Below are positions 8,983 to 15,138 of a stretch of DNA of 64,000 nt, piece by piece. Numbering within the stretch: position 1 is the first letter of the stretch; every line of letters starts with the position of its first letter. The position numbers were made by a program, and so were the translations under genes. Below the pieces are notes generated by a model. It was not told where the DNA came from, did no database searches, and was given only the letters and a program-made list of their open reading frames with translations. Origin of the DNA: Methylorubrum populi (GTDB lineage: Bacteria; Pseudomonadota; Alphaproteobacteria; Rhizobiales; Beijerinckiaceae); assembly GCA_036946625.1 (NCBI GenBank), contig JAQIIU010000002.1:1697501-1761500 (forward strand), in the 5' to 3' direction.

Positions 8983-9399
8983 TCAATCATCGGGTGGATT
9001 GCCGTCGTCGAGCATGCCCCTGAAGACGCGATAGGCGTCGGTCTTCGAGCCGTAGGTCCGCAACGTCGTCTCGTCATTCACCCAGGCGAAGACGAGCACC
9101 TTGGCCCTGCCGTCGTAGCGGAAGAACAGGCGGAAGCGGCCGTTGCCGAACTTGGCGCGGAACCAGTGCTTCCGCGCTTCCCCCAAGGTGCTGCCTTGGC
9201 GGTACTCGGGTCGGGCGGGATGTCCCGGCACCGTCTCGAAGATCAATTTGCGCAAAGCCGCGAGCAGCTTCGCGTTGGCTGCGCTGCCGTAACCGACCGG
9301 ATCCTTGACCCTGGCCTTCTCGACCACCGCCGTGAGCTTTTCGAGCTGATCGAGCAACAGGGGGTGAGCGAAGATCGTCCAGCCGTCGACGACGAGCAT
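8983..9399 (-). CDS. yhaV: Type II toxin YhaV, ribonuclease
   Basis: 138 residues matching YhaV, the RelE-fold mRNA interferase paired with PrlF: WTIFAHPLLLDQLEKL at the N-terminus, WFRAKFGNGRFRLFFRYD in the middle and FAWVNDETTLRTYGSKTDAY near the end. Conserved Arg, Lys and Tyr/Asp residues of the family are kept and the frame is intact, so an active toxin is expected. It starts 3 bases after the antitoxin stop, so the pair should be cotranscribed from the promoter upstream of prlF. Confidence 0.92.
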   Translation of the reverse strand: MLVVDGWTIFAHPLLLDQLEKLTAVVEKARVKDPVGYGSAANAKLLAALRKLIFETVPGHPARPEYRQGSTLGEARKHWFRAKFGNGRFRLFFRYDGRAKVLVFAWVNDETTLRTYGSKTDAYRVFRGMLDDGNPPDD

Positions 9400-9402
9400 C
9401 GG

Positions 9403-9729
9403 TCAGAGCGCGACCGGGCCGTCGATCGCCTCGTTCGGATCGACCTCGATCCCCGAGGCGAGCGCCGTCATGCGTTCGACGAGGCTTGCGGGAAAGGCGA
9501 CGATGCTCTCGCGCGGGTTGCGCTGCATGTCGCTGGCGAGGAAGTCGAGGAAATGCGCGATGACCGGATCCGCTTCCTCCTCGACACGGACGAGGCTCAC
9601 GCCCCGCTCGTCCACGAGATAGGCGATCTCCCCTCCGTAGCTCACGCCGAGCGCTTGGCGGACGGATTTCGGGATCGTGGTCTGACCCTTCGCCGTGATC
9701 TTGCTGCGCTCGCCGAGTCGAGCCGTCAT
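9403..9729 (-). CDS. prlF: Antitoxin PrlF, SpoVT/AbrB-type DNA-binding protein
   Basis: 108 residues. The N-terminal swapped-hairpin AbrB fold is seen in SKITAKGQTTIPKSVRQAL, the part expected to bind DNA. The C-terminal region (DPVIAHFLDFLASDMQRNP) is expected to neutralise YhaV. The ATG at 9729 has GGGAGG six bases upstream. An almost symmetric palindrome at 9750-9767 lies just before the gene, a good site for autorepression, which is the known behaviour of this family. The pair is lodged between a housekeeping membrane gene and fliJ, consistent with an accessory insertion. Confidence 0.92.
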   Translation of the reverse strand: MTARLGERSKITAKGQTTIPKSVRQALGVSYGGEIAYLVDERGVSLVRVEEEADPVIAHFLDFLASDMQRNPRESIVAFPASLVERMTALASGIEVDPNEAIDGPVAL

Positions 9730-9749
9730 CGCAGCCTCCCGTGCCGAAT

Positions 9750-9767
9750 GTAAGGAATACTCCTTAC
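9750..9767 (-). promoter_or_regulatory. Palindromic operator candidate of prlF-yhaV
   Basis: Perfect arms GTAAGGA and TCCTTAC separated by ATAC, 21 bases upstream of the prlF start codon. The site is AT-richer than its surroundings and sits where a core promoter would be. AbrB-type antitoxins bind such repeats, so autoregulation is inferred. Confidence 0.6.
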
Positions 9768-9794
9768 CGAAACGTGCTCCAAGGCACAACGGCG

Positions 9795-10388: not shown

Positions 10389-11747
10389 TCACCCGCCGCC
10401 GACGATGGCGGCCAACCGGGCGTAACCCTCGCCGATGGAGGTTGCTTCTTCCTTACCCTGCCCCAGAAAAGCCGTCAGATCGGGCATCAAGGCCACCGCC
10501 TCGTCGACTTCCGGCGACGAACCGGCGCGGTAGGCGCCGAGCCGGATCAACTCCTCCATGTCGGCATAGGTCGCGAGCACCTTTCGCGCACGCCGGACGG
10601 TGGGAAGGTGGCCCGGGTCGCAGGCCCGCGGCATGGTGCGCGAGACCGAGCGCAGCACGTTGATCGCCGGATAGCGCCCGGCTTCCGCGATGCGCCGCTC
10701 CATGACGATGTGGCCGTCGAGGATGCCGCGCACCGCGTCCGCCACCGGCTCGTTGTGGTCGTCGCCCTCCACCAGCACCGTGAACAGGCCGGAGATCGCC
10801 CCCTTCCCCGTGCCGGGCCCCGCCCTCTCCAGAAGGCGCGGCAACTCGGAGAAGACGGTCGGCGTGTAGCCCTTGGCGGTGGGCGGCTCGCCCCCGGCCA
10901 AGCCGATGTCGCGCTGGGCCATGGCGAAGCGGGTGATCGAGTCGATCATGCACAGCACCTGTGCGCCCTGATCGCGAAAATACTCGGCGACCGCCAGCGT
11001 CACGTAGGCCGCGTTGCGGCGCATCAGCACCGGCTCGTCGGAGGTCGCCACGACCACGACCGAGCGGGCGAGCCCCGCTGCGCCGAGATCGTCCTGGAGG
11101 AATTCCTGCACCTCGCGGCCGCGCTCGCCCACGAGGCCGATCACCGCCACGTCCGCGGCGGTGTAGCGGGCGAGCATGGAGAGCAGCACCGACTTGCCGA
11201 CCCCGGAGCCGGCGAAGATGCCCATGCGCTGCCCGCGGCACATGGTGAGAAAGGTGTTGATGCAGCGCACCCCGAGATCGAGCGGCGGCCCGACCCGCTT
11301 GCGCCCGTGCGCGGGCGGCGGATCGGCCCGCAAGGGATAGATCGCCGGCCCCTGCACCAGGGGGCCGAGCCCGTCGATGGGGCGCCCGAGGGCATCGACG
11401 GTCCGCCCGAGCCAAGCGGCGGAGGGGCGGATCGCGCCGGCCGCCTCGTCGCGCACCAGGGCCGGGCAGCCGCGGCGCACGCCCTCCAGCGAGCCGAACG
11501 GCATGGCGAGCGCGCGGTCGCCGGCAAAGCCGATCACCTCGCAGGGGACCGTCGCGGAGGCCGGCCCGCCGCGCGCCTCGACCACCACGTCGATGCGCCC
11601 GCCGAGCCGCATGGCGGCGATGGGGCCGGCGACCTCGACCAGCAGGCCGCGGATCGCCGTCACCCGGCCGAAGGTCTCCAGCGTCTCGACGGTCGAGAGC
11701 GTGGCGAGCGCCGCCGCCAGCCCTCCGGAGCCGGGTTCCTGCGTCAT
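10389..11747 (-). CDS. fliI: Flagellum-specific ATPase FliI
   Basis: 452 residues. Walker A GSGVGKS is at about 180-186, the catalytic-Glu region is [14 protein letters not shown] and Walker B lies in [21 protein letters not shown]. The N-terminal beta-barrel domain and the C-terminal helical domain are both present. FliI forms the hexameric ATPase that delivers flagellar substrates to FlhA. It is transcribed divergently from ctrA with a 455-base intergenic region, so both promoters lie there. fliJ follows on the same strand. Confidence 0.96.
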
Positions 11748-12024
11748 GCGTCCGATTCCGTTAACCGCGGCCCCGCCACCGAACCGGCCGATGTCTTAAC
11801 ATCGCGGGGCCCGCCGCCAAGTCTCCCCCCGCCAAGTCTCCCCTGCCGCTCCGGCGCGGTCACCGACCGGGGCATGGAAAAAAAAGATCGGCGACGAATG
11901 ACCGCCGTCTCCTTTCCGCAACAGACTCGTCAACCTCAGGCGACAGAAGGGGTTAGCTCCGACGGCCGTCCCGCAGACCCGGAAATGCCGCGGCAGAGGG
12001 AGAACAGATCGCCAACAGGGACGA

Positions 12025-12090
12025 GAATCGGGGCCGGACTCGAAAGGGACGACGCTTGCAAGCGGGATTCGGCTTTTGTTAACGGTTAAG
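12025..12090 (+). promoter_or_regulatory. ctrA upstream region: three GANTC sites and paired TTAA half-sites
   Basis: The 455 bases between fliI and ctrA hold no gene. GAATC at 12025-12029, GACTC at 12037-12041 and GATTC at 12066-12070 are CcrM methylation motifs packed into 46 bases. Two TTAA half-sites follow at 12079-12082 and 12086-12089, only three bases apart instead of the canonical seven. In Caulobacter, ctrA is regulated by methylation of GANTC and by CtrA itself; the arrangement here suggests the same logic. Binding at the odd TTAA spacing is unproven. Confidence 0.55.
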
Positions 12091-12202
12091 GAATAGCGTT
12101 TCGAAAGTGGGAATGAGGGAGCGTCCGCCGAGCCCATCGGCGGGCGACCGGCGGCGGCTTGTCTCAAGCGCCCCGAAACGGCCAGTCCGGGTGGGGATCA
12201 CG

Positions 12203-12904
12203 ATGCGCGTACTTCTGATCGAGGACGACAGCGCTACGGCGCAGAGCATCGAGTTGATGCTCAAATCCGAGAACTTCAACACCTATACGACCGACCTCGG
12301 CGAAGAAGGTGTCGATCTCGGCAAGCTCTACGACTACGACATCATCCTTCTCGACCTGAACCTGCCCGACATGTCGGGCTACGAGGTGCTGCGCTCCTTG
12401 CGCGTCGCCAAGGTGAAGACGCCGATCCTGATCCTGTCCGGCATGGCCGGCATCGAGGACAAGGTGAAGGGTCTCGGCTTCGGCGCCGACGATTACCTCA
12501 CCAAGCCGTTCCACAAGGACGAGCTGGTGGCGCGCATCCACGCCATCGTGCGCCGCTCGAAGGGCCACGCCCAGTCGGTCATCACCACCGGCGACCTGAT
12601 CGTGAACCTCGACCAGAAGACCGTCGAGGTCGCCGGTTCGCGGGTCCACCTCACCGGCAAGGAGTACCAGATGCTGGAACTCCTCTCGCTGCGGAAGGGC
12701 ACGACGCTGACCAAGGAGATGTTCCTCAACCATCTCTACGGCGGCATGGACGAGCCGGAATTGAAGATCATCGACGTGTTCATCTGCAAGCTGCGCAAGA
12801 AGCTGGCGAACGCTTCCGAGGGCAAGAACTACATCGAGACCGTGTGGGGCCGCGGCTACGTGCTGCGCGAGCCGGTCGAGGGCGAGGACCGCATGGCGGT
12901 CTGA
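12203..12904 (+). CDS. ctrA: Cell-cycle master response regulator CtrA
   Basis: 233 residues of an OmpR-type regulator. The receiver domain starts [20 protein letters not shown], has the phospho-acceptor Asp at 51 ([11 protein letters not shown]) and the conserved Lys in [11 protein letters not shown]. The winged-helix domain contains [17 protein letters not shown] and ends in [13 protein letters not shown], near identical to CtrA of other alphaproteobacteria. CtrA controls DNA replication, division and flagellar genes. The ATG at 12203 is preceded by GTGGGGATCACG. A box like its binding site is found before flhA in this window. Confidence 0.97.
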
Positions 12905-13098
12905 CGCCGCGCGATTCAGAAAGGTTCGGCCCGGGCGTCCTCTCAGCCAGGCCGGGAGGGAAGACTGGGCGAGGAGATCGCCGGGGCTGCGCGAGGAGCA
13001 GAGGGGTCTCTCCCGCCCTCCCAACACCAACAAACAGGCGGATCGTCCGGAGTCGATGGCTGGCGCGATGCGCCGATCACCGCCCGCACCGACCGACG

Positions 13099-13118
13099 AA
13101 CCCCGCTCCGGCGGGGTT
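13099..13118 (+). terminator. Hairpin terminator downstream of ctrA
   Basis: Perfect 8-base arms AACCCCGC and GCGGGGTT with a TCCG loop, followed by CTTCC. It lies about 195 bases after ctrA and could end transcripts from either side. The 441 bases from 12905 to 13345 show no convincing gene. Confidence 0.5.
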
Positions 13119-13345
13119 CTTCCGTTCAGGGGCTCCGCTCGGCGGCCGACGATCCGGGGGGGACGAGCGCCTGGACGACGGCGCGGGCGGCCGTGGCGTC
13201 GTCAGCGGCGAGCGAGCGGATCGTCAGGAGATCGCCGTCGAACCGATCCTGCTGATCCATCTCACCGCCGACAGGCCGGTCAGGCGGCATTCCGGATTGC
13301 GTGCCCGTCAGAATCAACGTTCCTCAGCCTTCCGGCCGAGGCGGG

Positions 13346-13742: not shown

Positions 13743-14000
13743 ATGCCGTCCATCACCATCCGCAACGTTCCCGATGCGGTGCATCGCGCCCTACGCATCC
13801 GGGCGGCACAGCACGGGCGCAGCACCGAGGCCGAGATCCGCGCCATCCTCGAGCAGGCGGCCAAGCCCGAGGGCCGCATGAAGCTCGGATCTCTGCTGAC
13901 GGCGATTGCCCGCGAAGCCGGAGGATTGACGGAAGCGGAATCGGATCAGTTCGACCGACTGCGCGACCGAACACCGCCCGAGCCGATGCGCTTCGAGTGA
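13743..14000 (+). CDS. fitA: Antitoxin of FitA family, ribbon-helix-helix
   Basis: 85 residues starting MPSITIRNVPDAVHRALRIR, the Arc-type ribbon-helix-helix that pairs beta strands to bind operator DNA, with AAQHGRSTEAEIRAILEQA as the recognition-to-dimer helix. The C-terminal half should block the PIN-domain partner. It is intact and 21 bases upstream of a frameshifted fitB, so it may now be an orphan antitoxin. The ATG at 13743 begins the conserved domain exactly; upstream in-frame sequence is not conserved-looking. Confidence 0.88.
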   Translation: MPSITIRNVPDAVHRALRIRAAQHGRSTEAEIRAILEQAAKPEGRMKLGSLLTAIAREAGGLTEAESDQFDRLRDRTPPEPMRFE

Positions 14001-14021
14001 CCGTCGCGATGATCGACTGAA

Positions 14022-14449
14022 ATGATCGTCTTGGACACCAACGTCATTTCCGAACTGTGGAAGGTGGCGCCCCATCCCAACGTGCTGGCCTGGATTGATG
14101 CGCAGATCGTCGAGACGCTCTACCTCTCGGCCGTGACCGTCGCCGAACTTCGGCTCGGCATCGCGATGATGCCCGCCGGCAAACGGCAGATGACCTTTCG
14201 GGAGCGACTGGAGCGGGAAGTGCTGCCGGCTTTCGCAGGCCGTGTGCTTCGTTCGACTTTGATGCCACCGATCGCTACGCCGCGTTCATGGCGCAGGCCA
14301 AGGCAGCAGGGCGAGCCATCGGCCATGCGGACGGCTACATTGCCGCCGCGACCATACTCCGCGGGTTCACCGTGGCCACCCGCGACACCGCTCCGTTCGA
14401 GGCTGCGGGATTGGTCGTCATCAATCCCTGGACAATCGAGATTTCCTGA
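14022..14449 (+). pseudogene. fitB: PIN-domain toxin FitB/VapC, inactivated by a one-base frameshift
   Basis: The first 76 residues are a normal PIN domain: MIVLDTNVISELWK with the first catalytic Asp, then TLYLSAVTVAELRLGI with the conserved Glu, then LERLEREVLPAFAGRVLR-like sequence. At about 14250-14252 the frame breaks. In the next frame the protein continues correctly with FDFDATDRYAAFMAQAK, AIGHADGYIAAATILRG, TVATRDTAPFEAAGL and INPWTIE, ending at 14449. One missing base in the codon before FDFD explains it. The unshifted frame runs on to 14564 as nonsense that loses two of the acidic residues, so toxin activity should be lost unless the break is a sequencing error. Confidence 0.82.
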
Positions 14450-14475
14450 GGGCCGACATCGGCGCTTGGCCGGGA

Positions 14476-15138
14476 TCAATCGTCCGACACGTCCTTGGCC
14501 GCCCGCACCGCCGCGATCAGCTCCTCCGCCCGCCCGCTCTGGAGCAACGGCACCCATCGCGTGACCGTCTCGTGAGAAAAGTCCCACCATGCCGTCTCGA
14601 CGAGCGCCGCGGTCGTCGCCTCGTCGAAGCGGCGGTGCACGATCCGGGCCGGATTGCCGGCCACCACCGCGTAGGGCGGCACGTCCCGGGTCACGACGGC
14701 GCGGGCGGCGACGACCGCGCCGTGGCCGACGGTGACGCCCGACAGGATCATGCAGCCCGACCCCAGCCACACATCGTGCCCGATGCTCACGTCGCCGCGT
14801 GAGGCATGGTAATCCTGCGGTGCATCCGCCCCCGGCCACAATCCGGCCATGGCCGCGAAAGGATAGGTCGAGACCCAGTCGAGCCGGTGATCTCCGCCGA
14901 GCAGGATCTCGACCTTGTCGGCGATGGAACAATAGCGGCCGATCGTCAGGCGGCTGCCCGATTCGGGGAAGCGCACCTTCGGCCTTCCGTAAGAGTATGC
15001 CCCGATTGAGAATTTCCAGCGGCGGACGAGCTTTTCGAGATGCCGCCGCGTCTCGTTGTGCGGGTTGCGCCCCCGCCGCAGCCGTTGCAACAGATGCCTC
15101 AACAGCGCCCCCCGGAAGAAGAGGGTGCGGACGCGCAT
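14476..15138 (-). CDS. Hexapeptide-repeat acetyltransferase, Vat/CatB (xenobiotic acyltransferase) type
   Basis: 220 residues. An N-terminal region ([20 protein letters not shown]) leads to left-handed beta-helix repeats such as [30 protein letters not shown] and [33 protein letters not shown]. The catalytic His-type position lies in the loop [16 protein letters not shown], as in streptogramin and chloramphenicol acetyltransferases of the XAT class. The real substrate may equally be a sugar of a surface glycan. It overlaps the leader of the divergent maeB gene; the start at 15138 gives a plausible N-terminus although no strong ribosome site is visible. Confidence 0.82.

Follow-up and report, generated by a model that had tools for sequence, protein, structure and literature searches.

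A CcrM site overlapping the left half-site position of a predicted CtrA box in the putative proximal ctrA promoter of Methylorubrum populi

Genomic Setting and Loci Compared

The window considered here, a continuous stretch of 64,000 nucleotides from Methylorubrum populi, carries ctrA, the gene of a response regulator of 233 aa (12203..12904, plus strand) composed of Response_reg and Trans_reg_C domains and identified by the NCBIfam model NF045991 with 422 bits against a cut-off of 350. Its start codon is the ATG at 12203; fliI and fliJ are opposite in direction to ctrA, and the divergent fliI starts at 11747, leaving an intergenic region of 455 bases. A sequence-only reading had placed a cluster of CcrM sites (GANTC) in the promoter region of ctrA, and the NF045991 match downstream, opening with that ATG, bears this location out. 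The genome (4.79 Mb, 3 contigs) contains a single CtrA match at E 1e-120 or better and encodes GcrA together with a CcrM-like methylase (N6_N4_Mtase and RAMA domains) whose gene adjoins mutY; methylation-linked control of ctrA, to which the same reading pointed, is known in Caulobacter. Among the named relatives covered (the best 80 of 588 candidates), Methylorubrum thiocyanatum comes closest by CtrA, at 100 percent identity, and the window therefore probably belongs to the M. extorquens group.

Only 11 TTAA tetranucleotides occur in the 64 kb, 4 of them in the ctrA-fliI intergenic region; two of the tetranucleotides, at 11761 and at 11796, lie close to the fliI start on its upstream side (11748-11800) and might serve the divergent flagellar genes as CtrA half-sites. 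A terminator-like stem with a T run (11889-11907, minus strand), directed towards fliI, stands between that gene and the ctrA promoter. Farther off, Pfam identifies a PrlF antitoxin and YhaV toxin pair (8986-9789, minus strand), and on the plus strand at 13746-14564 a FitA-like ribbon-helix-helix antitoxin is followed by a PIN-domain frame matching positions 1-60 of 120 only; the PIN toxin gene may be broken here.

Several samples of ctrA loci were compared. The named set comprises the window and the best 80 of 588 CtrA candidates (81 loci) and leans to near relatives. The genus set was formed by 80 main copies from the 106 Methylobacterium genomes with a CtrA match, two of which (L152 and L168) were too short, leaving 78, and 20 further copies from the genus, chosen by lower identity, represent presumed paralogs. 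A broader sample of the order includes 69 further loci drawn across 47 families. From 150 pooled loci, 126 unique anchored ones were retained after 17 without an anchor and 7 duplicate segments had been left out; the tree comprises 109 loci, with L231, which lacks the anchor, left out. The named set overlaps the others (locus L003 contains stretch L096), and counts from different sets are not additive.

Results

The cluster that had been noticed, three GANTC sites followed by TTAA-N3-TTAA, is present as described: GAATC at 12025-12029, GACTC at 12037-12041 and GATTC at 12066-12070 span 46 bases from first to last, and TTAA tetranucleotides begin downstream of them at 12079-12082 and 12086-12089. 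With 114 GANTC in the window overall, three within 46 (or 60) bases are met at this one place only. In order-1 simulations of the 455-base intergenic region, a GANTC cluster appeared in 115 of 3000 runs, TTAA-N3-TTAA in 3 and both together in none of 3000, so that the cluster count alone is weak evidence and the TTAA pair a less weak one; simulation of the whole window gave a mean of 4.05 GANTC clusters versus the 1 seen, implying that the order-1 model over-predicts them. The case that the site exceeds chance is made by comparison with relatives.

This comparison dissolves the trio as one unit, since site 3 (GATTC, 12066..12070, unstranded) is order-wide while the arrangement with sites 1 and 2 occurs in 17 of the 78 genus loci only. 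The order-wide element reads CTTGC-N6-GANTC-N8-TTAACCATT-N6-yAGnnT and takes in, from the window's cluster, just GANTC site 3 and the first TTAA. Columns of the named set (window plus best 80 of 588) give the profile CTTGC, 6 free positions, GAATCAG, 2 free, TTTGTTAACCATT, 6 mostly free and yAGCnT. In the window it comprises the conserved -35-like CTTGC 5' of GANTC (12055..12059, plus strand; T, T and G kept at 79, 78 and 78 of 81 loci), the predicted right CtrA half-site TTAAC (12079..12083, plus strand; 80-81 of 81 per column) and TAGCGT as a probable -10 hexamer of the yAGnnT type (12094..12099, plus strand; A at position 2 and T at position 6 in 74 of 81 each), all counted over the window plus the best 80 of 588.

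The core spacing GANTC-N8-TTAA was found in 65 of these 81 loci (window plus best 80 of 588), at -107 to -160, in 62 of the 78 genus loci and in 27 of the 69 broader order loci from 17 families, one of which (L278) carries it unusually far out, at -250. Being missing from the other 42 of 69 and from 16 of 78, most of the latter reading GGAnCAG, the element is not essential, and GANTC is dispensable in many lineages. In the named set (window plus best 80 of 588) N8 dominates among GANTC-TTAA spacings (65), N15 (44) and N24 (35) coming next because of an upstream tandem GANTC block, and none of seven control palindromes produced a peak equal to that of N8, the best reaching 25. An E. coli-type promoter scan of the region found no promoter. 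Taken as the signature of a genome-wide regulon, GANTC-N8-TTAA failed, its 8 places being equal to the reversed control; neither is the element class-wide, as its exact spacing was met, besides the window's own, in 1 of 29 ctrA loci, the best-scoring of 91 matching among 142 genomes. That locus (L216), lying outside the order and encoding a CtrA 77 percent identical, has GANTC-N8-TTAAC with TTTGTTAAC.

A full CtrA box, TTAA-N7-TTAA, is absent from the 64-kb window. Its predicted counterpart here has TTAAC as the right half and, seven bases before it, a left half-site position reading TTCG (12068..12071, plus strand), which GANTC site 3 overlaps. The left half position is ATCA in most relatives with GANTC and ATTA in many relatives without it; GANTC-less loci often show AAATTAG or GAATTAG there, that is TTA-N7-TTAAC, near the S. 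meliloti CtrA consensus TAA-N7-TTAAC (PMC3616915), and GAATTAG is a single transition apart from GAATCAG. The 126 unique anchored loci fall into 79 with GANTC, 31 with the left half as TTA/TAA-N7-TTAAC, 3 with TCA without GANTC and 13 others. Given T at +3, C at +4 is paired with GA at 0-1 in 79 of 82 loci, and T at +4 in 10 of 32 (counts that ignore relatedness), so the C is retained as a letter of GANTC. Judged from these alignments, GANTC is seated on the left half-site position of the predicted CtrA box and is maintained as GANTC. The register of GANTC over the box holds across the order, the box being predicted and its left half weak in the window, where CtrA may contact the right half-site alone, TTCG being a poor left half.

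The flanking parts of the element behave differently in these classes (126 anchored loci). CTTG in its strict form is present in 75 of 79 loci with GANTC, 7 of 31 with the left CtrA half, 1 of 13 others and 0 of 3 with TCA, while the downstream -10 is kept in every class (74 of 79, 25 of 31, 12 of 13 and 3 of 3, respectively). The tree of 109 loci, for which the looser criterion TTG was used, requires at least 14 changes of GANTC and at least 6 of TTG; TTG is present in all 80 GANTC loci and in 18 others that lack GANTC. For the link between TTG and GANTC, 7 or 4 independent pairs were supporting and none against (median p 0.25 and 0.125), too few to be significant.

The start of transcription was placed by homology. 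Two strong starts, TSS2 and TSS6, are described for S. meliloti ctrA (PMC3616915), lying at -69 and -291 as taken from reporter names and text (PMC5928217). In g300 and g274, the two genera nearest Ensifer adhaerens L075, which their identity suggests are probably Ensifer and Sinorhizobium, GANTC has its G at -110 (11 loci) or -111 (3 loci) in all 14 loci; the TSS2 equivalent falls at +41/+42 from this G in 14 of 14, 7-8 bases past a -10-like CAGCCT, and at the matching distance these loci carry CCTTGC-N6-GAATCAG-N6-TTAACCATT-N6-CAGCCT, a sequence read in relatives. Carried to the window, the TSS2 register makes TAGCGT the -10, sets the predicted start at about 12107 (12104..12108, plus strand) and gives the CtrA halves the positions -39 and -28. 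The element would accordingly represent the proximal ctrA promoter with a start near 12107, and with a predicted box at about -39 and a conserved -10 downstream it resembles, by register, P2 of Caulobacter. For S. meliloti, depletion of CtrA is reported to lower P1 mildly and to have no significant effect on P2 (PMC4433202).

The second TTAA (12086..12089, plus strand) is mainly a genus-level trait, with the N3 pair present in 61 of 78 genus loci. The 81 loci of the named set (window plus best 80 of 588) contain 15 such pairs, 14 of them at the element, namely in 10 Methylobacterium loci including the window and in 4 outside the genus, which read TTAACCATTAA (L039, L044 and L061) or TTAACCTTTAA (L025). 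The pair is probably not a CtrA site of odd spacing: only the first TTAA is order-wide, and the position of its partner half falls on GANTC site 3, at a distance of 11 bases on the upstream side. As a class of CtrA operator, TTAA-N3-TTAA was rejected as not enriched genome-wide, having 3 places versus 9 in the reversed control; the corresponding numbers for TTAA-N7-TTAA are 22 versus 12. The pair is probably the half-site TTAACCATT (TTAACGGTT in the window) followed by AA. Kept in most of the genus, it may nevertheless matter there, perhaps as a second half-site that would obstruct polymerase at about -21.

The full three-site arrangement, found in 17 of 78 genus loci, is confined to the extorquens group, to which sites 1 (GAATC, 12025..12029) and 2 (GACTC, 12037..12041), both unstranded, are specific. 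The three GANTC sites are maintained in near relatives: in 18 of 18 sequences G, A, T and C of sites 1 and 2 are invariant (8 of 8 fixed letters) and N varies. Against the fixed letters, 0 of 2 Ns and 7 of 26 neighboring positions are invariant (Fisher 3.5e-4, a guide only, as positions are taken as independent and the sequences are related), with N changing between GAATC and GACTC in site 1 and between GACTC and GAGTC in site 2, in one sequence each. Mean identity of this region is 80 percent, and that of its flanking stretches 60 and 98 percent. Grouping the loci by the core 3' of site 3, or by the leader, and leaving sites 1 and 2 out of account yields the same 17, hence the invariance was not made by the choice of loci. 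Sites 1 and 2 thus appear to be under selection as GANTC. At 12000-12016, GAGAACAGATCGCCAAC or a near-copy persists in several Methylobacterium species outside the extorquens group, amid surroundings that are not conserved.

Additional CtrA copies exist in the genus: 29 of the 106 Methylobacterium genomes with a CtrA match show two or more at E 1e-120, as many as 6, and split assemblies may account for some of them. The 20 lower-identity copies (L171-L190; 85-96 percent, 14 on contigs under 70 kb) were considered as carriers of GANTC-N8-TTAA and discarded (0 of 20). Any GANTC within 150 bases was seen for 4 of the 20 versus 65 of the 78 main copies, and 19 of the 20 have TTAA 54-60 bases before the start codon, often as TTAACGGTTTGTT.

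Another block, GANTC-N4-GANTC, is located at about -220 to -290 of ctrA in 78 of 150 order loci and in 0 of 78 genus loci; NNTT comes next in 71 of its 78 cases, and it occurs with and without fliI as a neighbor. The named Ensifer loci possess this tandem upstream, unlike Methylobacterium. Its window counterpart near 11946-11957 has no GANTC, and in S. meliloti the block would be part of the leader transcribed from the -291 start. Near it, some Rhizobiaceae show an inverted repeat on visual inspection; an RNA hairpin in this place was dismissed after RNAalifold, run on 43 sequences, gave no pair in which both sides had changed. Rfam yielded no match at the gathering threshold in 9 loci and, for window positions 11500-13200, only two sub-threshold matches, both downstream of ctrA.

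Discussion

We favor, with moderate confidence, the interpretation of the core 12055-12107 as the proximal promoter of ctrA, in which a predicted CtrA box with an embedded CcrM site provides methylation-sensitive autoregulation. What we observe is the sequence, how far it is conserved, the register of its parts and the selection that preserves the GANTC letters, and the start is assigned by homology; CtrA binding, methylation, the direction of its effect and a role of GcrA are inferred. The box would consist of the right half TTAAC at 12079 and of the left half position 12068-12071, overlapped by the CcrM site GATTC (12066-12070). Phosphorylated CtrA would occupy about -39 to -24 and assist RNA polymerase at TAGCGT, the -10. 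The methylated or hemimethylated state of the CcrM site within the box would alter CtrA binding or compete with it, and readers of methylated GANTC, such as GcrA, would perhaps compete too. Transcription of ctrA might thereby be coupled to passage of the replication fork, and in the extorquens group two more selected GANTC, at about -82 and -70, would add methylation input.

Two ctrA promoters of Caulobacter crescentus resemble this arrangement in part. Published positions (PMC4287350) put GANTC of P1 at -29 (-28 in the text of the same paper) and the CtrA half repressor TTAA at -14, while P2 has a full CtrA motif, TTAA-N7-TTAA, with its 5' end at -39. With P2 the window shares the N7 register of half-sites and the positions -39 and -28 relative to the TSS2-inferred start; unlike in P2, a CcrM site overlaps or takes the place of the left half, which reads TTCG in the window. 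With P1, compared by its published positions, it has in common a GANTC just over one helical turn 5' of a CtrA half-site, yet the distance from the start of GANTC to TTAA is 13 bases here and 15 (or 14) in P1, and the S. meliloti start lies further downstream.

The latter likeness allows a different promoter to be drawn on the same letters, which we regard as possible and rather doubtful. CTTGC would be the -35, GANTC would lie in the spacer and TTAAC over the -10 (with a TSS2-type start GANTC lies at -41 to -37), so that GcrA and sigma-70 would activate the promoter when it is methylated or hemimethylated and phosphorylated CtrA would repress it via the half-site, with a start near 12091-12093. 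Caulobacter P1 indeed combines GANTC with a downstream TTAA half repressor, the window offers TTGCAA-N17-TTAACG, and CTTG tracks GANTC (75 of 79) and is mostly missing with the CtrA left half (7 of 31). However, TTAACG is a poor -10, the mapped TSS2 of S. meliloti falls about 15 bases further downstream, and the TTG-GANTC link is not significant on the tree. An extended GcrA motif, YGAKTCK, is quoted for Caulobacter, with no such preference reported in Brevundimonas subvibrioides (PMC7987155); GGATTCG of window site 3 agrees with six of the seven motif positions, missing the Y, but the common GAATCA does not fit it. Tentatively, the two promoter types may also be superimposed and share TTAAC, a proposal that overlaps both the favored interpretation and the P1-type one: CtrA would shut the CcrM/GcrA-dependent start and open its own about 15 bases downstream, forming a compact toggle. 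Such a design agrees with conservation of both sets of elements, the -10 in every class and CTTG mainly with GANTC, and one Caulobacter CtrA box is thought to activate P2 and repress P3 (PMC4287350). Against it, the literature covered documents no second start at this place; in S. meliloti, TSS3 would lie between TSS2 (-69) and TSS4 (-112) if starts are numbered by distance, and the authors consider processing for it (PMC3616915).

The original proposal of a new operator, with unusually spaced TTAA-N3-TTAA joined to three CcrM sites, now looks improbable, even if the pair persists in 61 of 78 genus loci while adjacent bases change: the 4 pairs at the element outside the genus (best 80 of 588) are what a half-site with a fortuitous AA behind it would give, there is no enrichment genome-wide, and the first TTAA is explained by its 11-base register with the left half. 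It is more improbable still that the cluster arose by chance with sites 1 and 2 neutral. The 115 of 3000 simulations and the absence of the arrangement from the other 61 of 78 genus loci would suit such an origin, but not GANTC letters that stay invariant, with N varying, in a region of 80 percent mean identity.

The promoter with an embedded CcrM site, which we prefer, touches on several published results. In a synthetic promoter whose GANTCs overlap CtrA boxes, CtrA shields GANTC from CcrM (PMC5172544), and the local hypomethylation described in this paper for competition of CcrM with CtrA or MucR likewise concerns GANTC inside a CtrA box; the CtrA case there is a synthetic construct, whereas here the overlap is natural, with a predicted box, and is located at ctrA itself. 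In the open-licence literature covered we found no description of positional conservation of this element. Site counts gave no conclusion on methylation control in a 2010 study (PMC2877005), and a 2021 study found GANTC in 50 percent of Rhizobiales promoters within 300 bp before ctrA (PMC8116508), as against at least one GANTC within 300 bp in 144 of our 150 loci. The covered portions of the S. meliloti and Ensifer methylome papers PMC11711589 and PMC8725594 do not discuss the ctrA promoter.

More speculatively, the ctrA promoter in much of Hyphomicrobiales could be a natural methylation-gated autoregulatory switch, in which the transition between GAATTAG and GAATCAG would repeatedly trade the CtrA left half for a CcrM site, promoters driven by CcrM/GcrA and by CtrA would be superimposed on one TTAAC, and the extorquens group would have added two selected CcrM sites. 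The matter bears on the timing of ctrA expression in this order, as S. meliloti CtrA has little effect on its own promoters and the authors expect other factors (PMC4433202). A CcrM site on a CtrA half-site position is a concrete hypothesis that can be tested by single-base changes, with natural relatives carrying either version, and it would be the natural counterpart of the competition between CtrA and CcrM demonstrated with a synthetic promoter (PMC5172544).
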